Assembly: GCA_949130485.1 (NCBI GenBank)
Contig: OX422203.1
Coordinates: 5,646,429-5,710,428 of the forward strand
Length of the DNA: 64,000 nt
Direction: 5' to 3'
From: Agelas oroides
Taxonomy: Eukaryota > Porifera > Demospongiae > Agelasida > Agelasidae
The first letter of the stretch is position 1. Every line of letters begins with the position of its first letter. Under the pieces are notes generated by a model. It was not told the DNA's origin. It did no database searches and saw nothing but the letters and a program-made list of their open reading frames with translations. Below, in pieces: positions 1-41,869 of the stretch. A program made the translations under genes and the position numbers.

Positions 1-3000
1 CTACACTCTACAATGGCTCTACTATTTTCTACCATGGCTCTACTTGACTCCACTTGACTCTACTACACTCTACCATGGCTCTACTTGGCTCTACTTGGCT
101 CTACTACACTCTGCCATGGTTCTACTTGACTTTACTTTACTCTCCTACACTCTACCAGGCTCTACTTGGCTCTCCTTGGCTCTACTTCACCCCACTATGG
201 CTCTACTACATTTTACGATAGCTCTACTTAACTCTACATGACTCTACTACATTCTACCGGCGTTCTAATTCGTTCCACTTCACTCTACTACACTCTAACA
301 TGGCTCTACTACATTCTACCATGGCTCTACTATACATTTTACAATGGCCCTACTTCACTCTACATGACTCTACTACATTCTACAGGGGTTCTAATTCGCT
401 CTACTTGGCTCTACTACACTCTCCCATGGCTCTACTACATTCTACCATGGCACTACTTGACTCTACTTGACTCTACTACACTCTACCATAGCTCTACTTG
501 ACTCTACTTGGTTCTACTACACTCTTCCATGGCTCTACTACATTCTTCCAAGGCTCTACTGAACACTACATGACTCTACTACACTCTTCCATACTTCTAC
601 TTGCCTCTACTACACACTACCATGGCTCTACTACACTCTCCCAAGGCTCTACTTGACTCTACATGACTCTACTACATTCTACCGTGGGTCTACTTAGCGC
701 TAATTGACACTACTACTCTCCACCGTGACTCTACTGGGCTCTACTTGGCTCAACTACACTATACCATGCCTGTACTACATTCTACGATGGCTCTACTTGA
801 CTCTACATGACTCTACTACATTCTACAGGGGTTCTAATTCGCTCTACTTGGCTCTACTACACTCTACCATGGCTCTACTGAATTCTACCATGGGTCTACT
901 CGTCTCTACATGACTCCAATACATTCTACCGGGGTTCTAATTCGCTCTACTTGGCTCTACTACACTCTACCATGGCTCTACTACATTCTACCATGGCTCT
1001 ACTTGACTCCACTTGACTCTACTACACTCTACCATGGCTCTACTTCGCTCTACTTGGCTCTACTACACCCTGCCATAGCTCTACTTGATTTTACTTCACT
1101 CTCCTACACCCTACCAGGCTCTACTTGGCTCTCCTTGGCTCTACTTCACCCCACTACGGCTCTACTACATTTTACGATAGCTCTACTTGACTCTACATGA
1201 CTGTACTACATTCTACCGGCGTTCTAATTCGCTCTACTTCACTCTACTACACTCTACCATGGCTCTACTCCATTCTACCATGGCTCTACTATACATTTTA
1301 TAATGGCCCTACTTCACTCTACATGACTCTACTACATTCTACAGGGGTTCTAATTCGCTCTACTTGGCTCTACTACACTCTCCCATGGCTCTACTACATT
1401 CTACCATGGCTCTACTTGACTCTACTTGACTCTACTACACTCTCACATGGCTCTACTTGGGTCTACTTGGCTCTACTACACTCTACCATGGCCCTACTAC
1501 ATTCTACCATGGCTCTACTTGACTCTACTTGACTCTACTACACTCTACCATGGCTCTACTTCGCTCTACTTGTCTCTACTACACTCTACCATGGCTTTAC
1601 TACACTCTACCATGTCTCTACTTGCCTCTACATGACTCTACCACACACTTCTATGGATCTACTTGACTCTACTACACTCTGCCATGGCTCTACTTGCCTC
1701 TACATGACTCTACCACACACTTCTATGGATCTACTTGACTCTACTTGGCTCTAATACACTCTACCATGGCTCTACTACATTCTTCCAAGGCTCTACTGAA
1801 CTCTACATGACTCTACTACACTCTACAATACTTCTACTTGCCTCTACTGCATTCTAATATGGCTCTAGTTTGCTCGACTTGGATCTACTACACCCTACCA
1901 TGGCTCTACTACACTCTCCCAAGGCTCTACTTAACTCCACATCACTCTACTACATTCTACCACGACTCTACTTGACTCTACTGGACTCTACTACATTCTA
2001 CCATGGCTCTACTTAGCGCTATTTGACTCTACTACTCTCCACCATGGCTCTACTTGGCTGTACTTGGCTCAACTACACTATACTATGCCTCTATTACATT
2101 CTACGATGACTCTACTTGACTCTACATGACTCTACTACATTCTACAGGGGTTCTAATTCGCTCTACTTGGCTCTACTACACTCTCCCACGGCTCTACTAC
2201 ATTCTACCATGGCTCTACTTGACTCTACTTGACTCTACTACACTCTACCATGGCTCTACTTGGGTCCACTTGGCTCTACTACACTCTACCATGGCTCTAC
2301 TTCGCTCTACTTGGCTCTACTACACTCTACCATGGCTCTACTACACTCTACCATGTCTCTACTTGCCTCTACATGACTCTACCACACACTTCTATGGATC
2401 TACTTGACTCTACTACACTCTGCCATGGCTTTACTTGATTTTACTTGACTCTACTACACTCTACCATGCCCCTACTTCGCTCTATTACACGCTATCATGA
2501 CTCTACTACATTCCACCATCGCTATACTTGTCTCTACATCACTCTACTACACTCTACCATAGCTCTACTTAACTCTAGTTGGCTCTTCTACACTCTACCA
2601 CGGCTGTACTACATTCTTCCAAGGCTCTACTGAACTCTACATGACTCTACTACACTCTACCATGGCTCTACTACACTCTCCAAAGGCTCCACTTGACTCT
2701 ACATCACACTACTACACTCTACCATAGCTCTACTTGACTCTACTTGGCTCTACTACACTCTACCATGCCTCTACTGGCCTCTACATGAATCTACCACACA
2801 CTTCTATGGATGTACTTGACTCTACTACACTCTGCCATGGCTCTACTTGATTTTACTTGACTCTACTACACTCTACCATGCCCCTACTTCGCTCTATTAC
2901 ACGCTACCATGACTCTACTACATTCCACCATGGCTATACTTGACTCTACATCACTCAACCATAGCTCTACTTGACTCTACTTGGTTCTACTACACTCTTC

Positions 3001-3432
3001 CATGGCTCTACTACATTCTTCCAAGGCTCTACTGAACTCTACATGACTCTACTACACTCTACCATACTTCTACTTGTCGCTACTACACACTACCATGGCT
3101 CTACTACACTCTCCCAATGCTCTACTTGACTCTACATGACTCTACTACATTCTACCATGGCTCTACTTAGCACTAATTGATACTAGTACTCTCCATCGTG
3201 ACTCTACTGGGCTCTACTTGGCTCAACTACACTATCCCATGTCTGTACTACATTCTACGATGGCTCTACTTGACTCTACATGACTCTACTACATTCTACA
3301 GGGGTTCTAATTCGCTCTACTTGGCTCAACTACACTCTACCATGGTTTTACTACATTCTACCATGGGTCTACTCGTCTCTACATGAGTCCAATACATTCT
3401 ACCGGGGTTCTAATTCGCTCTACTTGGCTCTA
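1..3432. repeat. Higher-order repeat, 3.43-kb unit, copy 1
   Basis: Position 1 aligns with 3,433. The offset is 3,432 bp at first and drops to 3,422 bp after one 10-bp unit is lost near 3,894. Bases 1 to about 2,765 recur in the next copy. Bases 2,766-3,432 instead match 7,310-7,976, so the unit is a composite of two blocks that also appear in the neighbouring 3.0-kb repeat. Confidence 0.85.
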
Positions 3433-6187
3433 CTACACTCTACAATGGCTCTACTATTTTCTACCATGGCTCTACTTGACTCCACTTGACTCTACTACAC
3501 TCTACCATGGCTCTACTTGGCTCTACTTGGCTCTACTACACTCTGCCATGGTTCTACTTGACTTTACTTTACTCTCCTACACTCTACCAGGCTCTACTTG
3601 GCTCTCCTTGGCTCTACTTCACCCCACTATGGCTCTACTACATTTTACGATAGCTCTACTTAACTCTACATGACTCTACTACATTCTACCGGCGTTCTAA
3701 TTCGTTCCACTTCACTCTACTACACTCTAACATGGCTCTACTACATTCTACCATGGCTCTACTATACATTTTACAATGGCCCTACTTCACTCTACATGAC
3801 TCTACTACATTCTACAGGGGTTCTAATTCGCTCTACTTGGCTCTACTACACTCTCCCATGGCTCTACTACATTCTACCATGGCACTACTTGACTCTACTA
3901 CACTCTACCATAGCTCTACTTGACTCTACTTGGTTCTACTACACTCTTCCATGGCTCTACTACATTCTTCCAAGGCTCTACTGAACACTACATGACTCTA
4001 CTACACTCTTCCATACTTCTACTTGCCTCTACTACACACTACCATGGCTCTACTACACTCTCCCAAGGCTCTACTTGACTCTACATGACTCTACTACATT
4101 CTACCGTGGGTCTACTTAGCGCTAATTGACACTACTACTCTCCACCGTGACTCTACTGGGCTCTACTTGGCTCAACTACACTATACCATGCCTGTACTAC
4201 ATTCTACGATGGCTCTACTTGACTCTACATGACTCTACTACATTCTACAGGGGTTCTAATTCGCTCTACTTGGCTCTACTACACTCTACCATGGCTCTAC
4301 TGAATTCTACCATGGGTCTACTCGTCTCTACATGACTCCAATACATTCTACCGGGGTTCTAATTCGCTCTACTTGGCTCTACTACACTCTACCATGGCTC
4401 TACTACATTCTACCATGGCTCTACTTGACTCCACTTGACTCTACTACACTCTACCATGGCTCTACTTCGCTCTACTTGGCTCTACTACACCCTGCCATAG
4501 CTCTACTTGATTTTACTTCACTCTCCTACACCCTACCAGGCTCTACTTGGCTCTCCTTGGCTCTACTTCACCCCACTACGGCTCTACTACATTTTACGAT
4601 AGCTCTACTTGACTCTACATGACTGTACTACATTCTACCGGCGTTCTAATTCGCTCTACTTCACTCTACTACACTCTACCATGGCTCTACTCCATTCTAC
4701 CATGGCTCTACTATACATTTTATAATGGCCCTACTTCACTCTACATGACTCTACTACATTCTACAGGGGTTCTAATTCGCTCTACTTGGCTCTACTACAC
4801 TCTCCCATGGCTCTACTACATTCTACCATGGCTCTACTTGACTCTACTTGACTCTACTACACTCTCACATGGCTCTACTTGGGTCTACTTGGCTCTACTA
4901 CACTCTACCATGGCCCTACTACATTCTACCATGGCTCTACTTGACTCTACTTGACTCTACTACACTCTACCATGGCTCTACTTCGCTCTACTTGTCTCTA
5001 CTACACTCTACCATGGCTTTACTACACTCTACCATGTCTCTACTTGCCTCTACATGACTCTACCACACACTTCTATGGATCTACTTGACTCTACTACACT
5101 CTGCCATGGCTCTACTTGCCTCTACATGACTCTACCACACACTTCTATGGATCTACTTGACTCTACTTGGCTCTAATACACTCTACCATGGCTCTACTAC
5201 ATTCTTCCAAGGCTCTACTGAACTCTACATGACTCTACTACACTCTACAATACTTCTACTTGCCTCTACTGCATTCTAATATGGCTCTAGTTTGCTCGAC
5301 TTGGATCTACTACACCCTACCATGGCTCTACTACACTCTCCCAAGGCTCTACTTAACTCCACATCACTCTACTACATTCTACCACGACTCTACTTGACTC
5401 TACTGGACTCTACTACATTCTACCATGGCTCTACTTAGCGCTATTTGACTCTACTACTCTCCACCATGGCTCTACTTGGCTGTACTTGGCTCAACTACAC
5501 TGTACTATGACTCTATTACATTCTACGATGACTCTACTTGACTCTACATGACTCTACTACATTCTACAGGGGTTCTAATTCGCTCTACTTGGCTCTACTA
5601 CACTCTCCCAAGGCTCTACTACATTCTACCATGGCTCTACTTGACTCTACTTGACTCTACTACACTCTACCATGGCTCTACTTGGGTCCACTTGGCTCTA
5701 CTACACTCTACCATGGCTCTACTTCGCTCTACTTGGCTCTACTACACTCTACCATGGCTCTACTACACTCTACCATGTCTCTACTTGCCTCTACATGACT
5801 CTACCACACACTTCTATGGATCTACTTGACTCTACTACACTCTGCCATGGCTTTACTTGATTTTACTTGACTCTACTACACTCTACCATGCCCCTACTTC
5901 GCTCTATTACACGCTACCATGACTCTACTACATTCCACCATCGCTATACTTGACTCTACATCACTCTACTACACTCTACCATAGCTCTACTTAACTCTAG
6001 TTGGCTCTTCTACACTCTACCACGGCTGTACTACATTCTTCCAAGGCTCTACTGAACTCTACATGACTCTACTACACTCTACCATGGCTCTACTACACTC
6101 TCCAAAGGCTCCACTTGACTCTACATCACACTACTACACTCTACCATAGCTCTACTTGACTCTACTTGGCTCTACTACACTCTACCA
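3433..6187. repeat. Higher-order repeat, 3.43-kb unit, copy 2 (incomplete)
   Basis: This is a near-identical copy of 1-2,765 with one 10-bp unit deleted near 3,894. Similarity ends close to 6,187, where CCATGCCTCTACTGG in copy 1 is replaced by CCATGGCTCTACTACATTC. The stretch 6,188-7,309 is a mosaic of the same blocks and partly matches the end of the 3.0-kb unit: 6,876-7,309 resembles 9,926-10,318. Confidence 0.85.
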
Positions 6188-7309
6188 TGGCTCTACTACA
6201 TTCTTGCAAGGCTCTACTGAACTCTACATGACTCTCCTACACTCTACCATACTTCTACTTGCCTTTACTACACCCTACCATGGCTCTACTACACTCTCCC
6301 AAGGCTCTACTTGACTCTACATGACTCTACTACATTCTACCATGGCTCTACTTCACTCTACATGACTCTACTACATTCTACCATGGCTCTACTTGCCTCT
6401 ACATGACTCTACCACACACGTCTACGGCTCTACTTGACTCCACTACACTCTGCTATGGCTCTACTTGATTTTACTTGACTCTCCTACACCCTACCAGGCT
6501 CTACTTGGCTCTCCTTGGCTCTAGTACACCCTACCATGGCTCTACTACATTTGACGATAGCTCTACATGACTCTACATGACTCTACTACATTCTACCGGC
6601 GTTCTAATTCGCTCTACTTCACTCTACTACACTCTACCATGGCTCTACTACACTCTACCATAGCTCTACTTGACTCTACATGACTCTACTACATTCTACC
6701 ATTGCTCTACTTGACTCTAGTACACTCTACGATAGCTCTACTTGGCTCTACTTGACTCTACTACACACTAACATGACTCTACTTCGCTCTATTACACGCT
6801 ACCATGACTCTACTACATTCGAACATGCCTATATTTGACTCTACATCACTCTACTACACTCTACCATAGCTCTACTTGACTCTACTTTGCTCTACTGCAC
6901 TCTACCATTGCTCTACTACATTCTTCCAAGGCTCTACTGAAGTCTACATGACTCTACTACACTCTAGCATACCTCTACTTGCCTCTACTACATTCTACCA
7001 TGGCTCTAGTTTGCTCTACTTGGATCTATTACACTCTACCATGGCTCTACTACACTCTCCCAAGGCTCTACTTGACTCTACATCACTCTACTACATTCTA
7101 CCATGGCTCTACTTGACTCTACTTGACTCTACTACATTCTGCCATGGCTCTACTTAGCACTAATTGACTCTACTGCTCTCCACCATGGCTCTACTTGGCT
7201 CTACTTGACTCAACTACACCTCTAGTACATTCTACCATGGCTCTACTTGACTCTACTTGGCTCTACTGCACTCTACCATGGCTCTACTTGGCTCTACTAC
7301 ACTCTACCA

Positions 7310-10300
7310 TGCCTCTACTGGCCTCTACATGAATCTACCACACACTTCTATGGATGTACTTGACTCTACTACACTCTGCCATGGCTCTACTTGATTTTAC
7401 TTGACTCTACTACACTCTACCATGCCCCTACTTCGCTCTATTACACGCTACCATGACTCTACTACATTCCACCATGGCTATACTTGACTCTACATCACTC
7501 AACCATAGCTCTACTTGACTCTACTTGGTTCTACTACACTCTTCCATGGCTCTACTACATTCTTCCAAGGCTCTACTGAACTCTACATGACTCTACTACA
7601 CTCTACCATACTTCTACTTGTCGCTACTACACACTACCATGGCTCTACTACACTCTCCCAATGCTCTACTTGACTCTACATGACTCTACTACATTCTACC
7701 ATGGCTCTACTTAGCACTAATTGATACTAGTACTCTCCATCGTGACTCTACTGGGCTCTACTTGGCTCAACTACACTATCCCATGTCTGTACTACATTCT
7801 ACGATGGCTCTACTTGACTCTACATGACTCTACTACATTCTACAGGGGTTCTAATTCGCTCTACTTGGCTCAACTACACTCTACCATGGTTTTACTACAT
7901 TCTACCATGGGTCTACTCGTCTCTACATGAGTCCAATACATTCTACCGGGGTTCTAATTCGCTCTACTTGGCTCTACTACACTCTACAATGGCTCTACTA
8001 TTTTCTACCATGGCTCTACTTGACTCCACTTGACTCTACTACACTCTACCATGGCTCTACTTGGCTCTACTTGGCTCTACTACACTCTGCCATGGTTCTA
8101 CTTGACTTTACTTTACTCTCCTACACTCTACCAGGCTCTACTTGGCTCTCCTTGGCTCTACTTCACCACACTATGGCTCTACTACATTTTACGATAGCTC
8201 TACTTAACTCTACATGACTCTACTACATTCTACCGGCGTTCTAATTCGTTCCACTTCACTCTACTACACTCTAACATGGCTCTACTACATTCTACCATGG
8301 CTCTACTATACATTTTACAATGGCCCTACTTCACTCTACATGACTCTACTACATTCTATAGGGGTTCTAATTCGCTCTACTTGGCTCTACTACACTCTCC
8401 CATGGCTCTACTACATTCTACCATGGCACTACTTGACTCTACTTGACTCTACTACACTCTAACATGGCTGTACTTGGCTCTACTTGGCTCTACTACACTC
8501 TACCATGGCCCTACTACATTCTACCATGGCTCTACTTGACTCTACTTGACTCTACTACACTCTACCATGTCTCTACTTGCCTCTACATGACTCTACCACA
8601 CACTTCTATGGATCTACTTGACTCTACTACACTCTGCCATGGCTCTACTTGATTCTACTTGACTCTACTACACTCTACCATGGCTCTACGTGGCTCCACT
8701 TGGCTCTACTACACTCTACCATGGCTGTACTACACTCTACCATGTCTCTAATTGCCTCTACATGACTCTACTACACACTTCTATGGATCTACTTGACTCT
8801 ACTACACTCTGCCTTGGCTCTACTTCCCTCTACATGACTGTACCACACACTTCTATGGATCAACGTGACTCTACTTGGCTCTACTACACCCTACGATGGC
8901 TCTACTACATTGTTCCAAAGCTCTACTGAACTCTACATGACTCTACTACACTCTACAATACTTCTACTTGCCTCTACTGCATTCTAATATGGCTCTAGTT
9001 TGCTCGACTTGGATCTACTACAACCTACCATGGCTCAACTACACTCTCCCAAGGCTCTACTTGACTCCACATCACTCTACTACATTCTACCACGACTCTA
9101 CTTGACTCTACTGGACTCTACTACATTCTACCATGGCTCTACTTAGCGCTAATTGACTCTACTACTCACCACCATGGCTGTACTTGGCTGTACTTGGCTC
9201 ATGTACACTATACCATGCCTCTACTACATTCTACGATGGCTCTACTTGACTCAACATGACTCTACTACATTCTACAGGGGTTCTAATTCGCTCTACTTGG
9301 CTCTACTACACTCTCCCATGGCTCTACTACATTCTACCATGGCTCTACTTGACTCTACTTGACTCTACTACACTCTACCATGGCTCTACTTGGGTCCACT
9401 TGGCTCTACTACACTCTACCATGGCTCTACTACATTCTACCATGGCTCTACTTGACTCTACTTGACTCTACTACACTCTACCATGGCTCTACTTCGCTCT
9501 ACTTGGCTCTAATACACTCTTCCATGGCTCTACTACACTCTACCATGTCTCTACTTGTCTCTACATGACTCTACCACACACTTCTATGGATCTACTTGAC
9601 TCTACTACACTCTGCCATGGCTTTACTTGATTTAACTTGATTCTACTACACTCTACCATGCCCCTACTTCGCTCTATTACACGCTACCATGACTCTACTA
9701 CATTCCACCATGGCTATACTTGACTCTACATCACTCTACTACACTCTACCATAGCTCTACTTAACTCTTGTTGGCTCTTCTACACTCTACCACGGCTGTA
9801 CTACATTCTTCCAAGGCTCTACTGAACTCTACATGACTCTACTACACTCTACCATGGCTCTACTACACTCTCCCAAGGCTCCACTTGACTCTACATCACT
9901 CTACTACACTCTACCATAGCTCTACTTGACTCTACTTGGCTCTACTACACTCTACCATGGCTCTACTACATTCTTGCAAGGCTCTACTGAACTCTACTTG
10001 ACTCTACTACACTCTAGCATACCTCTACTTGCCTCTACTACATTCTACCATGGCTCTAGTTTGCTCTACTTGGATCTATTACACTCTACCATGGCTCTAC
10101 TACACTCTCCCAAGGCTCTACTTGACTCTACATCACTCTACTACATTCTACCATGGCTCTACTTGACTCTACTTGACTCTACTACATTCTGCCATGGCTC
10201 TACTTAGCACTAATTGACTCTACTGCTCTCCACCATGGCTCTACTTGGCTCTACTTGACTCAACTACACCTCTAGTACATTCTACCATGGCTCTACTTGG

Positions 10301-10318
10301 CTCTACTACACTCTACCA
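7310..10318. repeat. Higher-order repeat, 3.0-kb unit, copy 1 (3,009 bp)
   Basis: The next copy starts 3,009 bp further on. The left boundary is set at CCATGCCTCTACTGGCC. Compared with copy 2, this copy lacks a 41-bp segment near its right end. It also has a few private substitutions, for example TCTATAGGGG near 8,357 where the others read TCTACAGGGG. Confidence 0.85.
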
Positions 10319-13300: not shown

Positions 13301-13368
13301 TCTACTTGACTCTACTTGGCTCTACTGCACTCTACCATGGCTCTACTTGGCTCTACTACACTCTACCA
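10319..13368. repeat. Higher-order repeat, 3.0-kb unit, copy 2 (3,050 bp)
   Basis: This copy is collinear with copy 1 and carries the extra 41-bp segment near 13,310. Private changes include TGACTATACTTGA near 11,447 and TGACTAAACATGA near 12,259. Confidence 0.85.
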
Positions 13369-19000: not shown

Positions 19001-19859
19001 CACTCTACTACACTCTACCATGGCTCTACTACACTCTACCATGGTTCTACTTGACTCTACATGACTCTACTACATTCTACCATTGCTCTACTTGACTCTA
19101 CTTGACTCTAGTACACTCTACGATAGCTCTACTTGGCTCTACTTGACTCTACTACACCCTACCATGCCTCTACGTCGCTCTATTACACGCTACCATGACT
19201 CTACTACATTCCACCATGGCTATAATTGACTCTACATCACTCTACTACACTCTACTTGGCTCTACTGCACTCCACCATGGCTCTACTACATTCTTCCAAG
19301 GCTCTACTGAACTCTACATGACTCTACTACACTCTACCATACCTCTACATGCCTCTACTACATTCTACCATGGCTCTAGTTTGCTCTACTTGGATCTATT
19401 ACACCCTACCATGGCTCTACTACACTCTCCCAAGGCTCTACTTGACTCTACATCACTCTACTACATTCTACCATGGCTCTACTTGACTCTACTGGACTGT
19501 ACTACATTCTACCATGGCTCTACTTATCGCTAATTGACTCTACTACTCTCCACCATGGCTCTACTTGGCTGTACTTGGCTCAACTACACTATACCATGCC
19601 TGTACTACATTCTACGATGGCTCTACTTGACTCTATATGACTCTACTACATCCTACAGGGGTTCTAATTCGCTCTACTTGGCTCTACTACACTTTCCCAT
19701 GGCTCTACTATATTCTACCATCGCTCTACTTGACTCTCCTTGACTCTACTACACTCTACCATGGCTCTACTTGGGTCCACTTGGCTCTACTACACTCTAC
19801 CATGGCTCTACTACATTCTACCATGGCTCTACTTGACTCTACTTGACTCTACTACACTC

Positions 19860-25100: not shown

Positions 25101-25940
25101 AAGTCTACCATGGCTCTACTACATTCTACCATGGCTCTACTTGACTCTACTTGACTCTACTACACTCTACCATGGCTTTACTTGTCTCTACTTGACTCTA
25201 CTACACTCTACCATGGCTCTACTACATTCTACCAATGCTCTAGTTGAATCTACATCACTCTACTACATTCTACCATGGCTCTACTTGACTCTACTTGACT
25301 CTACTTCATTCTACCATGGCTCTACTTAGCACTAATTGACTCTACTACTCTCTACCATGGCTCTACTTGGCTCAACTACACTATACCATGCCTCTTCTAC
25401 ATTCTACCATGGCTCTACTTGACTCTACTTGACTCTACTACACTCTACCATGGCTCTACTTAGTTCTACTTGGCTCTACTACACTCTACCATGGCTCTAC
25501 TACATTCTACCATGGCTCTACTTGACTCTACTTGACTCTAGTACACTCTACCATGGTTCTACTTGGCTCTACTTGGCTCAACTATACACTCTACCATGGC
25601 TCTACTACATTCTACCATGTCTCTACTTGCCTCTACATGACTCTACCACACTCTTCTACGACTCTACTTGACTCTATTTGACTCTACTACATTCTACCAT
25701 GGCTCTACTTGACTCTACTTGACTCTACTACATTCTACGATGGCTCTACATGGCTCTACATGACTCTACTACATTCTACCACGGCTCTAGTTGACTGTAC
25801 TTGACTCTACTACACTCTACCATGGCTCTACTTGTCTCTACTTGGCTCTACTACATTCTACCATGGCTCTACTTGACTCTACTTGACTCTACTACACTCT
25901 ACCATGGCTCTACTTGGCTCTACTTGGCTCAACTACACTC

Positions 25941-28250: not shown

Positions 28251-30919
28251 CGAAGGCTCTACTGAACTCTACATGACTCTATTACACTCTACCATACTTC
28301 TACTTGCCTCTACTACACCCTACCATGGCTCTACTACACTCTCCCAAGGCTCTACTTGACTCTACATGACTCTACTACATTCTACCATCGCTCTACTTAG
28401 CGCTAATTGACACTACTACTCTCCACCGTGACTCGCTCAACTAACCTATACCATGCCTGTACTACATTCTACGATCGCTTTACTTGACTCTACATGACTC
28501 TACTACATTCTACCATGGCTCTACTTAACTCTACATGACTCTACTACATTCTACCATGGCTCTACTTGCCTCTACATGACTCTACCATACACGTCTACAG
28601 CTCTACTTGACTCTACTACACTCTATCAGGCTCTACTTGGCTCTCCTTGGCTCTACTACACCCTACCATGGCTCTAATACATTTAACGATAGCTCTACAT
28701 GACTCTACATGACTGTACTACATTCTACCGGCGTTCTAATTCGCTCTACTTCACTCTACTACACTCTACCATGGCTCTATTACATTCCACCATGGCTCTA
28801 CTATACATTTTACAATCGCCCTACTTCACTCTACATGACTCTATTACACTCTACCATGGCTCTTCTACATTCTACCATGGCTCTACTTGACTCTACATGA
28901 CTCTACTACATTCTATCATTGCTCTACTTGACTCTACTTGACTCTACTACACTCTACCATGCCCCTACATCGCTCTATTACACGCTACCATGACTCTACT
29001 ACATTCCATCATGGCTATAATTGACTCTACATCACTCTACTACACTCTACCATAGCTCTACTTGACTCTACTTGGCTCTACTGCACTCTACCATGGCTCT
29101 ACTACATTCTTCCAAGGCTCTACTGAACTCTACATGACTCTACTACACTCTACCATACCTCTACTTGCCTCTACTACATTCTACCATGGCTCTAGTTTGC
29201 TCTACTTGGATCTATTACACCCTACCTTGGCTCTACTACACTCTCCCAAGGCTCTACTTGACTCTACATCACTCTAATACATTCTACCATGGCTGTACTT
29301 GACTCTACTTGAGTCTACTTGAGTCTACTTGACTCTACTACACTCTACCAAGCCCCTACTTCGCTCTATTACACGCTACCATGACTCTACTACATTCCAC
29401 CATGGCTATACTTGACTCTAGATCACTCTACTACACTCTACCATAGCTCTACTTGACTCTACTTGGCTCTACTACAATCTACCATGGCTCTACTACATTG
29501 TTCCAAGGCTCTACTGAACTCTACATGACTCTACTACACTCTACCATACTTCTACTTGCCTCTACTACACCCTACCATGGCTCTACTACACTCTCCCAAG
29601 GCTCTACTTGACTCTACATCACTCTACTACATTCTACCATGGCTCTACTTCACTCTACATGACTCTACTACATTCTACCATGGCTCTACTTAGCGCTAAT
29701 TGACACTACTACTCTCCACCGTGACTCTACTTGGCTCTACTTGGCTCAACTACACTATACCATGCCTGCACTACATTCTACGATGGCTCTACTTGTCTCT
29801 ACATGACTCTAATACATTCTACCGGGGTTCTAATTCGCTGTACTTGGCTCTACTACACTCTACCATCGCTCTTCTACATTCTACCATGTCTCTACTTGCC
29901 TCTACATGACTCCACCACACTCTTCTACGACTCTACTTGACTCTACTTGACTCTACTACATTCTACCATGGCTCTACTTGACTCTACTTGACTCAACTAC
30001 ATTCTACGATGGCTCTAGTTGGCTCTACATGACTCTACTACATTCTACCATGGCTCTACTTGACTCTACTTGACTCTACTACATTCTGCCATGGCTCTAC
30101 TTGGCTCTACTTGGCTATACTACACTCTACCATGGCTCTACTACATTCTACCATGTCTCTACTTGCCTCTACATGACTCTACCACACTCGTCTACGGATC
30201 TACTTGACTCTACTACATTCTGCCATGGCGCTACTTGATTTTACTTGACTCTCCTACACTCTACCAGGCTCTACTTGGCTCTCCTTGGCTCTACTTCACC
30301 CCACCATGGCTCTACTACATTTTACGATAGCTCTACTTGACTCTACATGACTCTACTACATTCTACCGGCGTTCTAATTCACTCTACTTCACTCTACTAC
30401 ACTCTACCATGGCTCTACTACATTCTACCATGCCCCTACTTCGCTCTATTCCACGCTACCATGACTCTACTACATTCCACCATGGCTATACTTGACTCTA
30501 CATCACTCTTCTACACTCTACCATAGCTCTACTTGACTCTACTTGGCTCTACTACACTCTACCATGGCTCTACTACTTTCTTCCAAGGCTCTACTGAACT
30601 CTACATGACTCTACTACACTCTATAATACCTCTACTTGCCTCTACTACATTCTAATAAGGGTCTAGTTTGCTCGACTTGGATCTATTACACCCTACAATG
30701 GCTCTACTACACTCTCCCAAGGCTCTACCTGACTCCACATCACTCTACTACATTCTACCATGGCTCTACTTGACTCTACTGGACTCTACTACATTCTACC
30801 ATGGCTCTACTTAGCGCTAATTTACTCTACTACTCTCCACCATGGCTCTACTTGGCTGTACTTGGCTCAACTACACTATACCATGCCTCTACTACATTCT
30901 ACGATGGCTATGCTTGACT

Positions 30920-33091
30920 CTACATGACTCTACTACATTCTACAGGTGTTCTAATTCGCTCTACTTGGCTCTACTACACTCTACCATGGCTCTACTTGGC
31001 TCTACTTGGCTCTACTGCACTCTACCATGGCTCTACTACATTCTACCATGGCTCTACTACATTCTACCATGGCTCTACTTGACTCTACTTGACTCTACTA
31101 CACTCTACCATGGCTCTACTTGGCTCTACTTGGCTCTACTATACTCTACCATGGCTCTACTACACTCTACCATGTCTCTACTTGCCTCTACATGACTCTA
31201 CCACACACTTCTATGGATCTACTTGACTCTACTACACTCTGGCATGGCTCTACTTGATTTTACTTGACTCTACTACACTCTACCATGCCCCTACTTCGCT
31301 CTATTACACGCTACCATGACTCTACTACATTCCACCATGGCGATACTTGACTCTAGATCACTCTACTACACTCTACCATAGCTCTACTTGACTCTACTTG
31401 GCTCTGCTACACTCTACTATGGCTCTACTACATTGTTCCAAGGCTCTACTGAACCCTACATGACTCTACTACACTCTACCATACTTCTACTTGCCTCTAC
31501 TACACCCTACCATGGCTCTACTACACTCTCCCAAGGCTCTACTTGACTCTACATCACTCTACTACATTCTACCATGGCTCTACTTCACTGTATATGACTC
31601 TACTACATTCTACCATGGCTCTACTTAGCGCTAATTGACACTACTACTCTCCACCGTGACTCTACTTGGCTCTACTTGGCTCAACTACACTATACCATGC
31701 CTGTACTACATTCTACCATGGCTCTACTTGTCTCTACATGACTCTAATACATTCTACCGGGGTTCTAATTCGCTATACTTGGCTCTACTGCACTCTACCA
31801 TGGCTCTACTACATTCTACCATGGCTCTACTTGTCTCTACATGACTCTAATACATTCTACCGGGGTTCTAATTCGCTGTACTTGGCTCTACTATACTCTA
31901 GCATGGCTCTTCTACATTCTACCATGTCTCTACTTGCCTCTACATGACTCTACCACACTCTTCTACGAGTCTACTTGACTCTACTTGACTCTACTACATT
32001 CTACCATGGCTCTACTTGACTCTACTTGACTCTACTACATTCTACGATGGCTCTACTTGGCTCTACATGACTCTACTACATTCTACCATGGCTGTACTTG
32101 GCTCTACTTGGCTCTACTACACTCTACCATGGCTCTACTACATTCTACCATGTCTCTACTTGCCTCTACATGACTCTACCACACTCGTCTACGGATCTAC
32201 TTGACTCTACTACATTCTGCCATGGTGCTACTTGATTTTACTTGACTCTTCTACACTCTAGCAGGCTCTACTTGGCTCTCCTTGGCTCTGCTTCACCCCA
32301 CCATGGCTCTGGTACGTTTGACGATAGCTCTACTTGACTCTACATGACTCTACTACATTCTACCGGCGTTGTAATTCGCTCTACTTCATTCTACTACACT
32401 CTACCATTGCTCTACTACATTCTACCATGCCCCTACTTCGCTCTATAACACGCTACCATGAGTCTACTTCATTCCACCATGGCTATACTTGACTCTACAT
32501 CACTCTTCTACACTCTACCATAGCTCTACTTGACTCTACTTGGCTCTACTACACTCTACCATGGCTCTACTACATTCTTCCAAGGCTCTACTGAACTCTA
32601 CATGACTCTACTACACTCTACAATACCTCTACTTGACTCTACTGGACTCTACTACATTCTACCATGGCTCTATTTCGCGCTAATTTACTCTACTACTCTC
32701 CACCATGGCTCTACTTGGCTGTACTTGGCTCAACTACAGTATACCATGCCTCTACTACATTCTACGATGGCTATGCTTGACTCTACATGACTCTACTACA
32801 TTCTACAGGGGTTCTAATTCGCTCTACTTGGCTCTACTACACTCTCCCGTGGCTCTACTACATTCTACCATGGCTCTACTTGACTCTACTTGACTCTACT
32901 ACACTCTACCATGGCTCTACTTGGCTCCACTTGGCTCTACTACACTCTACCATGGCTCTACTACATTCTACCATGGCTCTACTTGACTCTACTTGACTCT
33001 ACTACACTCTACCATGGCTCTACTTCGCTCTACTTGGCTCTACTACACACTACCATGGCTCTACTACATTCTACCATGGCTCTACTTGACT
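30920..33091. repeat. Higher-order repeat, 2,172-bp unit, copy 1
   Basis: First of three head-to-tail copies at a constant 2,172-bp offset (landmarks 31,635, 33,807, 35,979). The left edge is set where similarity to the next copy begins, close to ACAGGTGTTCTAATTCGCTC at 30,942. The copies differ at only a few positions by eye, which makes this the youngest-looking amplification in the array. Confidence 0.88.
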
Positions 33092-35263
33092 CTACATGAC
33101 TCTACTACATTCTACAGGTGTTCTAATTCGCTCTACTTGGCTCTACTACACTCCACTATGGCTCTACTTGGCTCTACTTGGCTCTACTGCACTCTACCAT
33201 GGCTCTACTACATTCTACCATGGCTCTACTACATTCTACCATGGCTCTACTTGACTCTACTTGACTCTACTACACTCTACCATGGCTCTACTTGGCTCTA
33301 CTTGGCTCTACTATACTCTACCATGGCTCTACTACACTCTACCATGTCTCTACTTGCCTCTACATGACTCTACCACACACTTCTATGGATCTACTTGACT
33401 CTACTACACTCTGGCATGGCTCTACTTGATTTTACTTGACTCTACTACACTCTACCATGCCCCTACTTCGCTCTATTACACGCTACCATGACTCTACTAC
33501 ATTCCACTATGGCGATACTTGACTCTACATCACTCTACTACACTCTACCATAGCTCTACTTGACTCTACTTGGCTCTGCTACACTCTACTATGGTTCTAC
33601 TACATTGTTCCAAGGCTCTACTGAACCCTACATGACTCTACTACACTCTACCATACTTCTACTTGCCTCTACTACACCCTACCATGGCTCTACTACACTC
33701 TCCCAAGGCTCTACTTGACTCTACATCACTCTACTACATTCTACCATGGCTCTACTTCACTGTATATGACTCTACTACATTCTACCATGGCTCTACTTAG
33801 CGCTAATTGACACTACTACTCTCCACCGTGACTCTACTTGGCTCTACTTGGCTCAACTACACTATACCATGCCTGTACTACATTCTACCATGGCTCTACT
33901 TGTCTCTACATGACTCTAATACATTCTACCGGGGTTCTAATTCGCTATACTTGGCTCTACTGCACTCTACCATGGCTCTACTACATTCTACCATGGCTCT
34001 ACTTGTCTCTACATGACTCTAATACATTCTACCGGGGTTCTAATTCGCTGTACTTGGCTCTACTATACTCTAGCATGGCTCTTCTACATTCTACCATGTC
34101 TCTACTTGCCTCTACATGACTCTACCACACTCTTCTACGAGTCTACTTGACTCTACTTGACTCTACTACATTCTACCATGGCTCTACTTGACTCTACTTG
34201 ACTCTACTACATTCTACGATGGCTCTACTTGGCTCTACATGACTCTACTACATTCTACCATGGCTGTACTTGGCTCTACTTGGCTCTACTACACTCTACC
34301 ATGGCTCTACTACATTCTACCATGTCTCTACTTGCCTCTACATGACTCTACCACACTCGTCTACGGATCTACTTGACTCTATTACATTCTGCCATGGCGC
34401 TACTTGATTTTACTTGACTCTCCTACACTCTAGCAGGCTCTACTTGGCTCTCCTTGGCTCTGCTTCACCCCACCATGGCTCTAGTACGTTTGACGATAGC
34501 TCTACTTGACTCTACATGACTCTACTACATTCTACCGGCGTTGTAATTCGCTCTACTTCATTCTACTACACTCTACCATTGCTCTACTACGTTCTACCAT
34601 GCCCCTACTTCGCTCTATTACACGCTACCATGTGTCTACTACATTCCACCATGGCTATACTTGACTCTACATCACTCTTCTACACTCTACCATAGCTCTA
34701 CTTGACTCTACTTGGCTCTACTACACTCTACCATGGCTCTACTACATTCTTCCAAGGCTCTACTGAACTCTACATGACTCTACTACACTCTACAATACCT
34801 CTACTTGACTCTACTGGACTCTACTACATTCTACCATGGCTCTACTTCGCGCTAATTTACTCTACTACTCTCCACCATGGCTCTACTTGGCTGTACTTGG
34901 CTCAACTACAGTATACCATGCCTCTACTACATTCTACGATGGCTATGCTTGACTCTACATGACTCTACTACATTCTACAGGGGTTCTAATTCGCTCTACT
35001 TGGCTCTACTACACTCTCCCGTGGCTCTACTACATTCTACCATGGCTCTACTTGACTCTACTTGACTCTACTACACTCTACCATGGCTCTACTTGGCTCC
35101 ACTTGGCTCTACTACACTCTACCATGGCTCTACTACATTCTACCATGGCTCTACTTGACTCTACTTGACTCTACTACACTCTACCATGGCTCTACTTCGC
35201 TCTACTTGGCTCTACTACACACTACCATGGCTCTACTACATTCTACCATGGCTCTACTTGACT
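33092..35263. repeat. Higher-order repeat, 2,172-bp unit, copy 2
   Basis: Collinear with copies 1 and 3 without unit-level indels that I could see. Copies 2 and 3 share changes absent from copy 1, such as CCACTATGGCGAT (33,505; 35,677) where copy 1 reads CCACCATGGCGAT. This suggests that copies 2 and 3 separated last. Confidence 0.88.
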
Positions 35264-37385
35264 CTACATGACTCTACTACATTCTACAGGTGTTCTAATT
35301 CGCTCTACTTGGCTCTACTACACTCTACTATGGCTCTACTTGGCTCTACTTGGCTCTACTGCACTCTACCATGGCTCTACTACATTCTACCATGGCTCTA
35401 CTACATTCTACCATGGCTCTACTTGACTCTACTTGACTCTACTACACTCTACCATGGCTCTACTTGGCTCTACTTGGCTCTACTATACTCTACCATGGCT
35501 CTACTACACTCTACCATGTCTCTACTTGCCTCTACATGACTCTACCACACACTTCTATGGATCTACTTGACTCTACTACACTCTGGCATGGCTCTACTTG
35601 ATTTTACTTGACTCTACTACACTCTACCATGCCCCTACTTCGCTCTATTACACGCTACCATGACTCTACTACATTCCACTATGGCGATACTTGACTCTAC
35701 ATCACTCTACTACACTCTACCATAGCTCTACTTGACTCTACTTGGCTCTGCTACACTCTACTATGGTTCTACTACATTGTTCCAAGGCTCTACTGAACCC
35801 TACATGACTCTACTACACTCTACCATACTTCTACTTGCCTCTACTACACCCTACCATGGCTCTACTACACTCTCCCAAGGCTCTACTTGACTCTACATCA
35901 CTCTACTACATTCTACCATGGCTCTACTTCACTGTATATGACTCTACTACATTCTACCATGGCTCTACTTAGCGCTAATTGACACTACTACTCTCCACCG
36001 TGACTCTACTTGGCTCTACTTGGCTCAACTACACTATACCATGCCTGTACTACATTCTACCATGGCTCTACTTGTCTCTACATGACTCTAATACATTCTA
36101 CCGGGGTTCTAATTCGCTATACTTGGCTCTACTGCACTCTACCATGGCTCTACTACATTCTACCATGGCTCTACTTGTCTCTACATGACTCTAATACATT
36201 CTACCGGGGTTCTAATTCGCTGTACTTGGCTCTACTATACTCTAGCATGGCTCTTCTACATTCTACCATGTCTCTACTTGCCTCTACATGACTCTACCAC
36301 ACTCTTCTACGAGTCTACTTGACTCTACTTGACTCTACTACATTCTACCATGGCTCTACTTGACTCTACTTGACTCTACTACATTCTACGATGGCTCTAC
36401 TTGGCTCTACATGACTCTACTACATTCTACCATGGCTGTACTTGGCTCTACTTGGCTCTACTACACTCTACCATGGCTCTACTACATTCTACCATGTCTC
36501 TACTTGCCTCTACATGACTCTACCACACTCGTCTACGGATCTACTTGACTCTATTACATTCTGCCATGGCGCTACTTGATTTTACTTGACTCTCCTACAC
36601 TCTAGCAGGCTCTACTTGGCTCTCCTTGGCTCTGCTTCACCCCACCATGGCTCTAGTACGTTTGACGATAGCTCTACTTGACTCTACATGACTCTACTAC
36701 ATTCTACCGGCGTTGTAATTCGCTCTACTTCATTCTACTACACTCTACCATTGCTCTACTACGTTCTACCATGCCCCTACTTCGCTCTATTACACGCTAC
36801 CATGTGTCTACTACATTCCACCATGGCTATACTTGACTCTACATCACTCTTCTACACTCTACCATAGCTCTACTTGACTCTACTTGGCTCTACTACACTC
36901 TACCATGGGTCTACTACATTCTTCCAAGGCTCTACTGAACTCTACATGACTCTACTACACTCTACAATACCTCTACTTGACTCTACTGGACTCTACTACA
37001 TTCTACCATGGCTCTACTTCGCGCTAATTTACTCTACTACTCTCCACCATGGCTCTACTTGGCTGTACTTGGCTCAACTACAGTATACCATGCCTCTACT
37101 ACATTCTACGATGGCTATGCTTGACTCTACATGACTCTACTACATTCTACAGGGGTTCTAATTCGCTCTACTTGGCTCTACTACACTCTCCCGTGGCTCT
37201 ACTACATTCTACCATGGCTCTACTTGACTCTACTTGACTCTACTACACTCTACCATGGCTCTACTTGGCTCCACTTGGCTCTACTACACTCTACCATGGC
37301 TCTACTACATTCTACCATGGCTCTACTTGACTCTACTTGACTCTACTACACTCTACCATGGCTCTACTTCGCTCTACTTGGCTCT
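35264..37385. repeat. Higher-order repeat, 2,172-bp unit, copy 3 (end truncated)
   Basis: Third copy of the 2,172-bp unit. It departs from the pattern near 37,385, where copy 2 reads CTACACACTACC and this copy reads CTACACTCTACC. The stretch 37,386-41,029 is satellite with looser order and more frequent single-base variants. Confidence 0.85.
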
Positions 37386-40300
37386 ACTACACTCTACCAT
37401 GGCTCTACTACACTCTACCATGTCTCTACTTGCCTCTACATGACTCTACCACACACTTCTATGGATCTATTTGACTCTACTACACTCTTCCATGGCTCTA
37501 CTTGATTTTACTTGACTCTACTACACTCTACCATGGCTCTACTTGGCTCCACTTGGCTCTACTACACTCTACCATGACTCTACTACATTCCACCATGGCT
37601 ATACTTGACTCTACATGACTCTACTACACTCTACCATAGCTCTACTTGACTCTACTTGGCTCTACTACACTCTACCATGGCTCTACTAAATTCTACCATG
37701 GCTCTACTTGTCTCTAGATGACTCTAATACATTCTACCGGGGTTCTAATTCGCTGTACTTGGCTCTACTACACTCTAGCATGGCTCTTCTACATTCTACC
37801 ATGTCTCTACTTGCCTCTACATGACTCCACCACACTCTTCTACGACTCTACTTGACTCTACTAGACTCTACTACATTCTACCATGGCTCTACTTGACTCT
37901 ACTTGACTCTATACTACATTCTACGATGGCTCTACTTGGCTCTACATGACTCTACTACATTCTACCATGGCTCTACTTGACTCTACTTGACTCTACCATG
38001 GCTCTACTACATTCTACCATGTCTCTACTTGCCTCTACATGACTCTACCATACTCGTCTACGGATCTACTTGACTCTACTACACTCTGCCATGGCGCTAC
38101 TTGATTTTACTTGACTCTCCTACACTCTACCAGGCTCTACTTGGCTCTCCTTGGCTCTACTTCACCCCACCATGGCTCTACTACATTTTACGATAGCTCT
38201 ACTTGACTCTACAAGACTCTACTACATTCTACCGGCGTTCTAATTCGCTCTACTTCACTCTACTACACTCTACCATGGCTCTACTACATTCTACCATGGC
38301 TCTACTATACATTTTACAATGGCCCTATTTCACTCTACATGACTCTACTACATTCTACCGGGGTTCTAATTTGCTCTACTTCACTCTACTACACTCTACC
38401 ATGGCTCTACTACATTCTACCATGGCTCTACTTGACTCTACATGACTCCACTACATTCTACCATTGCTCTACTTGACTCTACTTGACTCTAGTACACTCT
38501 ACGATAGCTCTACTTGGCTCTACTTGACTCTACTACACTCTACCATGCCTCTACTTCGCTCTATTACACGCGACCATGACTCTACTACATTCCACCATGG
38601 CTATAATTGACTCTACATCACTCTACTACACTCTACCATAGCTCTACTTGACTCTATTTGGCTCTACTGCACTCTACCCTGGCTCTACTTTGCTCTACCA
38701 TGGCTCTACTTGACTCTACATGACTCTACTACATTCTACCATGGCTCTACTTGATCATACTTGACTCTACTACACTCTACAATACCTCTGCTTCGCTGTA
38801 CTTGACTCTACTACACTCCACCATGGCCCAACTTGGCTCTACTACATGCTACCATGGCTCTACTACATTCTACCATACTACATTCTACCATTGAGTCTAC
38901 ATTATTCTACGAAACTCTACCATAGCTCTACTTGCCTCTACTACATTCTACCATGGCTCTACTTTGCTCTACTTGGATCTATTACACCCTATCATGGCTC
39001 TACTACACTCTACCAAGGCTCTACTTGACTCTACATGTCTCTACTACATTCTACCGTGGCTCTACTTGACTCTACTACATTCTACCATGGCTCTACTACA
39101 CTCTACAATGGCTCTACTACATTCTACCATGGGTCTACTTGACTCTCATCACTCTACTACACTCTACCATAGCTCTACTTGACTCTACTACATTCTACCA
39201 TGGCTCTACTACACTCTACAATGGCTCTACTACATTCTACCATGGGTCTACTTGACTCTCATCACTCTACTACACTCTACCATAGGTCTACTTGACTATA
39301 CTACATTCTACCATGGCTCTACTTGGATCTACTACACTCTACCATGGCTCTACTACATTCTTCCAAGGCTCTACTTGACTCTACATGACTCTAGTACAGT
39401 CTACCATAGCTCTACTTGACACTATTACAGTCTACCATGGCTCTAGTTCGCTCTACTTGGGGGATGTACTACACACTGCCATGGCTGTACTACATTCTAC
39501 CATGGCTTTACTTGACTCTACATGACTCTACATGACTCTACTACACTCTACTATAGCTCTACTTGACTCTATTGCATTCCTCCATGGCTTTACTTCGCTC
39601 TACTTGGAGCTACTACACTCTACCATGGCTCTACTAGATTGTTCGAAGGCTCTACTTGACTCTACATGACTCTAGTACACTCTACCATAGCTCGACTAGA
39701 CTCGACTACATTCTACCATGGCTCTACTTCGCTGTACTTTGATCTACTACACTCTACCATGGCTCTATAGACTACATTCTTCCAAAGCTCTACTTGACTC
39801 TACATGACTCTACTACACTCTACCATAGCTCTACTTGCCTCTACTACATTCTATCATGGCTCTACTTTGCTCTACTTGGATCTATTACACCCTATCATGG
39901 CTCTACTACACTCTCCCAAGGCTCTACTTGACTCGACATGTCTCTACTACATTCTACCATGGCTCTACTTGACTCTACTACGTTCTACCGTGGCTCTACT
40001 ACACTCTACAATGGCTCTACTACATTCTACCATGGGTCTACTTGACTCTCATCACTCTACTACACTCTAACATAGCTCTACTTTACTCTAATACATTCTA
40101 CCATGGCTCTACTTCGCTCTACTTGGATCTACTACACTCTACCATGGCTCTACTACATTCTTCCAAGGCTCTACTTGACTCTACATGACTCTACTACACT
40201 CTACCATAGCTCTACTTGACACTACTACATTCTACCTTGGCTCTAGTTCGCTCTACTTGGGGGATGTACTACACACTGCCATAGCTCTACTATATTCTAC

Positions 40301-41029
40301 CATGGCTTTACTTGACTCTACATGACTCTACTACACTCTACCATAGCTCTACTTGACTCTACTACATTCCTCCATGGCTTTACTTCGCTGTACTTGGAGC
40401 TACTGCACTCTACCATGGCTCTACTAGATTCTTCCAAGGCTCCACTTGACTCTACATGACTCTTCTACACTCTACCAGCTCTACTTGGCTCTACTTGGCT
40501 CTATAATGGCTCTACTACATTCTACCATAGCTCTACCACATTCTACCATGGATCTACGTGACTCTACATCACTCTACTACACTCTACCATAGCTCTACTT
40601 CACTCTACTGCATTGTACCATGGCTCTACTTGAGTCTACATGAGTCTACTACATTCTACTACATTCTACCATGGCTTTACTTGACTCTAAATGACTCTAC
40701 TACACTCTACCATAGCTCTACTTGACTCTACTACATTCCACCATTGCTTTACTTCACTCTACTTGGATCTGCTACACTCTACGATGGCTCTACTACATTC
40801 TTCCAAGGCTCTACTTGACTCTACATGACTCTACTACACTAGGTCTACCATAACTCTACTTGCCTCTACTACATTGTACCATGGCTCTATAGTTTGCTCT
40901 ACTTGGATCTATTACACCCTATCATGGCTCTACTACACTCTCCCAAGGCTCTACTTGACTCTACATCACTCTACTACATTCTACCATGGCTTTGCTTGAC
41001 TCTACTACATTCTACCATGGCTCTACTTA

Positions 41030-41369
41030 GCGCTAATTGACTCTACTACACTCCACCATGGATCTAATTGGCTATACTTGGCTCAACTACACTATACCAT
41101 GCCTCTACTACACTCTACGATGGCTCTACATGACTCTACATGACTCTACTACATTCTACCAGGATTCTAATTCGCTCTACTTTGCTCTACTACACTCTAC
41201 CATGGCTCAACTACATTCTACCATGGCTCTACTTAGCGCTAATTGACTCTACTACACTCCACCATGGCTCTACTTGGCTCAACGACACTATACCATGGCT
41301 CTACTACTTTCTACGATGGCTCTACTTGACTCTACATGACTCTACTACATTCTACCATGGCTCTACTTA
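41030..41369. repeat. 340-bp satellite doublet, copy 1
   Basis: A 340-bp block starting in GCGCTAATTGACTCTACTAC recurs directly at 41,370-41,709 with only a few substitutions (for example GATCTAATTGG against GATCTACTTGG). It contains the local word ACCAGGATTCTAATTCGC. Confidence 0.88.
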
Positions 41370-41709
41370 GCGCTAATTGACTCTACTACACTCCACCATG
41401 GATCTACTTGGCTATACTTGGCTCAACTACACTATACCATGCCTCTACTACACTCTACGATGGCTTTACATGACTCTACATGACTCTACTACATTCTACC
41501 AGGATTCTAATTCGCTCTACTTTGCTCTACTACACTCTACCATGGCTCAACTACATTCTACCATGGCTCTACTTAGCGCTAATTGACTCTACTACACTCC
41601 ACCATGGCTCTACTTGGCTCAACGACACTATACCATGGCTCTACTACTTTCTACGATGGCTCTACTTGACTCTACATGACTCTACTACATTCTACCATGG
41701 CTCTACTTA
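41370..41709. repeat. 340-bp satellite doublet, copy 2
   Basis: Direct tandem copy of the preceding 340 bp. It is the last well-ordered repeat before the transposon-like insertion at 41,870. Confidence 0.88.
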
Positions 41710-41869
41710 GTGCTAATTGACACTACTACTCTCCACCGTGACTCGCTCAACTACACTATACCATGCCTGTACTACATTCTACGATGGCTCTACTTGACTC
41801 TACATGACTCTACTACAATCTAGAGGGGGTCTAATTCGCTCTACTTGGCTCTCCTACACTCTACCATGG

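Follow-up and report, generated by a model that had tools for sequence, protein, structure and literature searches.

Positions 1 to 41869 of a 64,000-nucleotide stretch of the genome of the sponge Agelas oroides (hereafter the window; C21:5646429-5710428) are filled by an array of 10- and 11-bp units, denoted here satellite A, whose mean spacing approximates one turn of the DNA helix. C21 is a contig of 7.16 Mb in an assembly of 259.3 Mb and 141 contigs. The helical period of this array is real, but the design that might be read into it, that of a nucleosome track maintained by selection, is unsupported at present. Instead, satellite A is probably a locally homogenised heterochromatic, and possibly centromeric, satellite whose period is a by-product of block grammar and copying rather than a product of selection.

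Block structure and helical phase

Parsing of the array by dynamic programming yielded 4059 anchors and 4058 spacings. Of the latter, 2834 measure 10 bp and 1188 measure 11 bp, which leaves 36 (0.9%) of other lengths; the mean over the 10- and 11-mers is 10.295 bp. An earlier sequence-only reading had described an array of such units, and this description is borne out. It had also bounded the array at positions 1 and 41869; the array does fill this range, but degraded satellite resumes beyond a 326-bp insert and continues to ~42715, and the family extends leftward to at least C21:5.279 Mb. Unit positions 2-6 are conserved at 91-93% and position 1 at 80%, whereas in the tail (positions 7-10) the most frequent base accounts for 36-63%. 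Mismatches in the core, CTCTAC, amount to 7.7%, and TA was found at its expected position in 85% of units. The array has a G+C content of 44%, with AA and TT making up 1.15% and 5.65% of steps, respectively.

The 11-mers are mostly (Y)TCTACCATGG-like, with 93.7% of them within two changes of a CATGG tail, and they are one unit type that is tied to a preceding TACA unit: a TACA unit precedes 976 of 1187 11-mers, and an 11-mer follows 976 of 1003 TACA units. Blocks closed by an 11-mer are most often 41 bp (n = 683), followed by 21 bp (n = 331) and 31 bp (n = 140), corresponding to three, one, and two preceding 10-mers. Because 11-mers are mostly preceded by these numbers of 10-mers, the 103-bp period is mostly 41 + 41 + 21. 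Unit means of 103/10 and 31/3 bp had been proposed, and while a mean of about 10.3 bp holds overall, 31-bp blocks are the rarest of the three.

At a larger scale, the five longest self-matches of the array span 2.8-4.8 kb at offsets of 2.2-6.1 kb and identities of 97.6-99.4%. These multi-unit copies are far more alike than adjacent units, as in higher-order repeats. Offsets of 3009, 3050, 3432, and 6059 bp are near whole multiples of 10.305 bp; offsets of 2171 and 4343 bp are not. Open reading frames of 93-124 amino acids are present in the array, and a coding role for them was rejected since they are short and recur along with the duplications, which suggests a mechanical origin.

Collectively, these patterns may be accounted for by stepwise growth. 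An ancestral 10-bp unit with the core CTCTAC would have given rise to a 21-bp dimer (a 10-mer with TACA and an 11-mer with CATGG), which, once interspersed with further 10-mers, would have formed blocks of 21, 31, and 41 bp. Unequal exchange and conversion may then have spread these blocks in higher-order copies of kilobase length. Both the 10.3-bp mean and the phase of TA steps would follow from block grammar and copying, nucleosomes would have a moderate rotational preference at most, and the period would apparently not be held by selection.

The spectrum of TA steps peaks at 10.305 bp, and their autocorrelation has peaks that include lags of 10, 21, 31, 41, 62, 103, 144, and 206 bp, compared to values of no more than 0.06 in the flank at all lags except 1. 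The sequence-only reading had put forward TA autocorrelation as a check, and phase does persist well beyond 100 bp; such TA phasing, at 10.2-10.4 bp and maintained for 100 bp or more, is a property of 601-like positioning sequences. At a period (T) of 10.305 bp, the vector strength of anchors was 0.951 over 147 bp, 0.923 over 300 bp, 0.82 over 1030 bp, 0.47 over 10.3 kb, and 0.44 over 41 kb, with visible drift of phase after ~16 kb. At T = 10.2 it was 0.921, 0.802, and 0.526 over 147, 300, and 600 bp, and at T = 10.5 it was 0.845, 0.561, and 0.149 over the same lengths. At the 10.5 bp per turn of relaxed B-DNA, TA steps complete one circuit of the helix in about 0.56 kb, and meaningful phase is therefore confined to the scale of the nucleosome. 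These values contradict the assertion that TA steps throughout more than 40 kb face the same side.

When blocks were kept intact and their order was shuffled (n = 100), vector strength was 0.949 at 147 bp, 0.910 at 300 bp, and 0.77 at 1030 bp. Autocorrelation of TA steps was also averaged over lag bands of 5-108, 108-211, 211-520, 520-1035, 1035-2065, and 2065-5150 bp. The real array gave 0.105, 0.095, 0.084, 0.066, 0.049, and 0.017; 30 block shuffles gave 0.104, 0.091, 0.068, 0.037, 0.013, and -0.002; and 30 unit shuffles gave 0.085, 0.053, 0.022, 0.005, 0, and 0, with the flank at ~0. Since block shuffles retain phase to ~200 bp, block grammar suffices for phase at the nucleosome scale.

Distribution of satellite A among chromosomes

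A satellite A 27-mer, allowing at most 2 mismatches, matched the genome 72,573 + 48,774 = 121,347 times, while the reversed 27-mer had 0 matches, which rules out chance. At the density of the window array (705 matches in 41.9 kb, or 16.8 per kb) or that of 14 array samples (15.9 per kb), satellite A makes up ~7.2-7.7 Mb, or ~3% of the genome. Blocks were mapped with exact 52- and 62-mers, where one pattern is represented by the first 100 of 110 places (ending within C14) and others, with 51 and 35 places, are complete; a pattern with a different unit order had 0 matches in the genome. On C21, the exact 52- and 62-mers locate satellite A at 5.28-5.58 Mb, and another pattern, for which part of 225 matches was listed, extends this to 5.684 Mb; all C21 places listed fall within a single ~410-kb stretch (5.279-5.688 Mb) in a single orientation. 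The array of the window is the edge of this block, which most likely lies in pericentromeric or centromeric heterochromatin.

Among the matches listed, further blocks were identified on C2 (6.40-6.55 Mb), C3 (8.40-8.80 and 11.68-12.32 Mb), C13 (5.57-5.78 Mb, with one additional match at 5.13 Mb), and C14 (3.00-3.16 Mb on the minus strand, and 5.82-6.04 Mb), along with single or paired places on C6, C8, C10, C16 (1.70, 1.98, 4.32, and 4.73 Mb), and C19. These blocks span tens to hundreds of kb, and the exact matches listed within a block mostly share one orientation; in the second C14 block, plus gives way to minus between 6.003 and 6.022 Mb, a change that resembles an inversion. Elsewhere in the genome, satellite A forms islands of ~120-1400 bp in both orientations.

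These blocks might be functional centromeres that carry chromatin containing CENP-A, with the short unit merely tolerated. In support of this, the C21 places listed occupy one stretch in a single orientation, blocks on C2, C3, C13, and C14 are comparable, and Drosophila centromeres use 5- and 10-mers, according to the sections of PMC5844345 consulted. The mapped blocks are internal to chromosomes, and no satellite A array was present in the initial 5 kb of any of the seven chromosome-size contigs sampled (C10, C15, C18, C20, C21, C22, and C23). However, C3, C14, and C16 each have two or more blocks or places, which contradicts a scheme of one block per chromosome, and C1 has seven short places in both orientations. 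A centromeric function is possible but, in our estimate, somewhat less probable than its absence.

Five of these contig starts (C10, C15, C20, C21, and C22) begin at base 1 with a (CTAACC)n telomere repeat followed by a 55-bp repeat, and in C18 the telomere repeat starts at base 583 and is followed by a 54-bp repeat; neither the telomere repeat nor the 54-/55-bp repeat was detected in the first 5 kb of C23. The 54-55-bp subtelomeric repeat is near-perfect, spans 1.3-4.6 kb, and is common to the six chromosome starts where it was observed.

Carriage of the short islands by a transposon was considered and rejected, as an all-against-all comparison of 19 sequences (the window and 18 loci), with arrays masked, revealed no flank that the islands share. 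The few flank pieces that are shared involve L017 and L041/L042 (40-72 bp), L031 and the window (122 bp), and L042 and the window (45 bp). Separately, a ~1-kb stretch that is 90% alike was identified next to or inside satellite A on C2 and C3 (L041:6439-7384 and L042:3432-4427). An unrelated satellite, denoted satellite B, with 10-bp units (CATGAGACAC and variants), adjoins satellite A on C2 at ~6.33-6.35 Mb (L041:1-3080 and 4478-5700; L031:1731-3027). It has 3209 pattern matches, the first 100 of which are spread over C1-C6, and three stretches of it exhibit unit shifts of 3 and poor phase.

Predicted positioning and tests for selection

The sequence-only reading held that the mixture of 10- and 11-mers had been selected to keep TA steps in rotational phase on histone octamers, such that the array would be a natural strong nucleosome-positioning or intrinsically curved tract. 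The spectral peak of TA steps is consistent with this proposal. To evaluate it, positioning models were applied in 147-bp windows and compared to Widom 601, a reference positioning sequence, and to permutations of the repeat columns that keep period and composition but randomise which steps share a phase. Permutations for dinucleotide models (n = 400) were compared with the real first 300 units, bend was calculated over 120 bp (200 permutations), and the roll and wedge models drew on tables of base-step values.

For TA alone, predicted amplitude was 0.076 compared to 0.021 in the flank and 0.031 in 601, and it exceeded that of 601 in 99.9% of array windows and 14% of flank windows; 12% of permuted repeats were at or above the real value. 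The two mixed dinucleotide models also placed the array above the flank. Amplitude for AA/TT/TA-GC was 0.109 (flank, 0.050; 601, 0.114), with 39% of windows above 601 and 49% of permutations at or above the real value, and amplitude for WW-SS was 0.118 (flank, 0.073; 601, 0.165), with corresponding values of 2.9% and 77%. Prodsat, a satellite of Drosophila melanogaster and of a type in which AA/WW steps with a 10-bp period would lower wrapping energy, has a WW-SS amplitude of 0.124 in the same model. Roll amplitude was 0.100, much like that of the flank (0.108) and below that of 601 (0.131), and 97% of permutations were at or above it. Bend was 44.9 degrees in the wedge model (flank, 33.5, SD 17.6; A5N5 control, 79.5; 64% of permutations at or above) and 8.4 degrees in the roll model (flank, 10.2; A5N5 control, 55.7; 98% at or above).

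In these models, TA alone is strongly phased and the other steps offset its phasing in predicted bending. Neither the roll nor the wedge model predicts bending well above that of ordinary DNA, and neither phased A-tracts nor strong predicted curvature characterise the array. By the permutation control, satellite A is predicted to stand out as a positioning sequence for TA steps only, and even then to a moderate degree. The mixed models place the array above the flank, but 77% (WW-SS) and 49% (AA/TT/TA-GC) of permuted repeats match or surpass it and WW-SS falls below 601; neither exceptional positioning nor intrinsic curvature is supported.

Constraint was evaluated in the youngest copies (at least 97% identity), which comprise 6 alignments with 15,969 columns, 187 substitutions, and 18 indels. 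Substitutions were about half as frequent in the TCTA core (positions 2-5; 48/6206) as in the tail (95/6665; p = 0.0004), a count that leaves out unit positions 1 and 6 (24/1550 and 20/1548). Such a difference might be expected if the core, presented once per turn on one face of the helix, were recognised by a sequence-specific protein of heterochromatin or the centromere, by analogy with Prod on AATAACATAG in Drosophila. The conservation of unit positions 2-6 relative to the tail and the presence of arrays on many chromosomes are in line with this possibility. However, most of the substitutions (152 of 187) have a neighbour no more than 12 bp away, a clustering that exchange between units would produce, and among the 35 isolated substitutions the difference disappears (core, 10/6168; tail, 14/6584; p = 0.55). 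The same was observed in pairs of 93-97% identity, where all substitutions gave 255/8293 in the core and 394/8881 in the tail but isolated ones gave 66/8104 and 74/8561 (p = 0.73). A protected CTCTAC core was therefore rejected, and exchange between unit types explains the gap, which leaves a protein-binding site as an unlikely explanation. By position, the TA step is kept no better than the preceding TC.

Indels offer a second test. Of the 18 in the youngest copies, 14 change phase, and the ratio of these to isolated substitutions (14 to 35) is not below that of a transposon-copy control (26 indels to 166 substitutions; 192 to 1318 over 55 pairs). Runs of pure 10-bp units also occur elsewhere in the genome (16 matches; 11-mers make up 1 of 15 units in L086 and 7 of 69 in L087), and mean spacing varies from 10.12 to 10.33 bp across 14 samples of array, each 2-3 kb long and including two from a single C21 block. 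Taken as a whole, the sequence comparisons do not clearly point to selection, either on the TA core or against indels that change phase. Evidence against selection of the 10/11 mixture for phase comes from the tie of the 11-mer to its predecessor, the sufficiency of block shuffles at the nucleosome scale, the lack of core constraint among isolated substitutions, and the preponderance of phase-changing indels; together with predicted amplitudes and bends at or below those of permuted repeats in all models but TA alone, this makes it improbable.

Several observations nevertheless weigh against a period that arose by copying alone in a homogenised satellite. Unit-order shuffles (n = 100) lose phase faster than the real array (0.894 at 147 bp, where the real array has 0.951, and 0.54 at 1030 bp), as the proposal of selected phase had anticipated. 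The real array also exceeds block shuffles in phase beyond 200 bp, and its best-period strength over the whole array is 0.456, compared to a mean of 0.334 and a maximum of 0.431 in 20 block shuffles. This long-range excess is real, and we infer that it derives from the kilobase duplications. Spacings other than 10 or 11 bp are rare despite the level of core mismatch. Relative to substitutions of any kind, phase-changing indels (14 to 187) occur at about half the transposon ratio, and ratios of all indels to all substitutions are 45/889 in pairs of 93-97% identity, an ambiguous value given that 213 of the 889 are isolated, and 161/1478 in pairs of 88-93% identity. At face value, these ratios suggest some hold on spacing, which vanishes only when clustered substitutions are set aside, and a mild hold is conceivable. 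Odd unit lengths are more frequent in islands (32/518; n = 11) and in edge or mixed loci (161/3102; n = 5) than in cores (70/2830), as sorted by the analyst; the 15 core samples are from C2, C3, C6, C8, C10, C13, C14, C16, and C21, although that from C10 (29 spacings) is really an island. Rank tests per locus were not significant for islands or edges against cores (p = 0.16 and 0.066). An initial, approximately tenfold gap between the C21 array and islands fell to 2.5% versus 6.2% with more loci and no chaining across gaps, and tightly held spacing in array cores was rejected. Lastly, several blocks or places per chromosome on C3, C14, and C16, and the change of orientation inside one C14 block, run counter to a single block per chromosome.

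Array edge and relation to known satellites

The features of the window are summarized in Table 1.

Table 1. Coordinates of satellite A and adjoining features in the window.
Feature	Position	Strand	Description
Satellite A array	1..41869	+	10-/11-bp units CTCTACTACA, CTCTACTTGA, CTCTACTTGG, CTCTACATGA, YTCTACCATGG; extends leftward past the window
Higher-order duplication	1..6197	+	1-2775 vs 3433-6197, 99.4% identity
21-bp dimer (example)	1389..1409	+	CTCTACTACA + TTCTACCATGG; this dimer type carries most 11-mers
Higher-order duplication	30761..37726	+	30761-35544 vs 32932-37726, 98.0% identity, offset 2171
Transposon-like insert, 326 bp	41874..42199	+	Non-autonomous DNA-transposon-like; ends CAGTGGCGTAGC / GCTACGCCACTG; breaks the satellite A array
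Degraded satellite A remnant	42200..42715	+	Core mismatch 11.6%; 5/44 spacings not 10/11, two of them 25-bp jumps
Protein kinase + Kelch gene (Pfam)	43715-46231	-	Neighbour of the array

The insert has at least 39 dispersed copies elsewhere in the genome (best 40 of 266 candidates scored; 41 matches including that of the window itself and a 41-base fragment). Among the matches listed, the closest other copy is on C16 (96%), the remaining ones are 82-88% identical, and the 41-base fragment is 93% identical. A short dispersed element at 43270-43440 has 12 matches on C2, C3, C14, C17, and C21, and another copy of it adjoins a satellite A island (C2:6328002-6328119). The kinase-Kelch family is hugely expanded, with at least 6428 proteins at E <= 0.001 (best 7999 candidates scored). 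To the left of the window, the array is broken near C21 5.6145 Mb (L005 from ~base 1887) by non-satellite DNA with GGTGTTT/AACACC motifs, perhaps a mobile element.

Satellite A shares with human alpha satellite, an example of higher-order repeat organization, a short unit, multi-unit blocks, kilobase higher-order copies, and a more degraded edge, although the basic unit of alpha satellite is nucleosome-sized and that of satellite A is ~10 bp. Its TA spacing of 10.2-10.4 bp is that of Widom 601 and TA-periodic 'strong nucleosome' sequences, but its WW-SS amplitude is lower than that of 601 and its roll amplitude is like that of ordinary flank. With tandem units within the range of 5-12 bp in large arrays, satellite A is a candidate member of the short-unit (Prodsat-type) satellites of centromeres and pericentromeres. 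The closest known system is Prodsat itself (AATAACATAG), the centromeric 10-mer of D. melanogaster, which likewise has about one helical turn per unit and forms large arrays, as described in the consulted part of its source. However, Prodsat is exactly 10 bp and nearly AT-only, whereas satellite A, characterised from sequence, combines 10- and 11-bp units with a mean of 10.30 bp, 44% G+C, and the core CTCTAC. Human satellite III and Drosophila dodecasatellite have 5-12-bp units in (peri)centromeric heterochromatin, according to the consulted sections of PMC8122249 and PMC5844345; their sequences are unrelated to satellite A, which would share such a location. The part of the review consulted (PMC8122249) indicates that most satellite units are either nucleosome-sized or 5-10 bp.

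In the portion of Talbert et al. (2018; PMC5844345) consulted, 5- and 10-mers of D. melanogaster are CENP-A-enriched and rotational phasing is suggested as an advantage. Because rotational phasing was proposed there for Drosophila repeats, the idea of the sequence-only reading has a published precedent in another animal. No paper that treats satellites or centromeres of sponges turned up in the literature searched, and the main text of the Spongilla lacustris genome paper (PMC12141999) contains neither 'centromer' nor 'satellite'. The satellite A family is thus large, real, and new as far as the literature searched shows, although its kind is already known.

A further possibility is that an early-branching animal has centromeres composed of repeats of a single helical turn, with a 10/11 grammar that keeps CENP-A nucleosomes in one rotational register, convergent with Prodsat. 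We regard this as a long shot; if true, such a convergent, independent counterpart of Prodsat would suggest that helix-length repeats are a general rule at centromeres. The controls applied here, permuted columns and block shuffles, account for most of what seemed to speak for design and indicate that a rhythm matching the helix easily arises from copying alone. A family of 7-8 Mb with a 10.3-bp unit nonetheless provides a natural system, beside Prodsat, for the study of helix-length repeats and centromeric nucleosomes.

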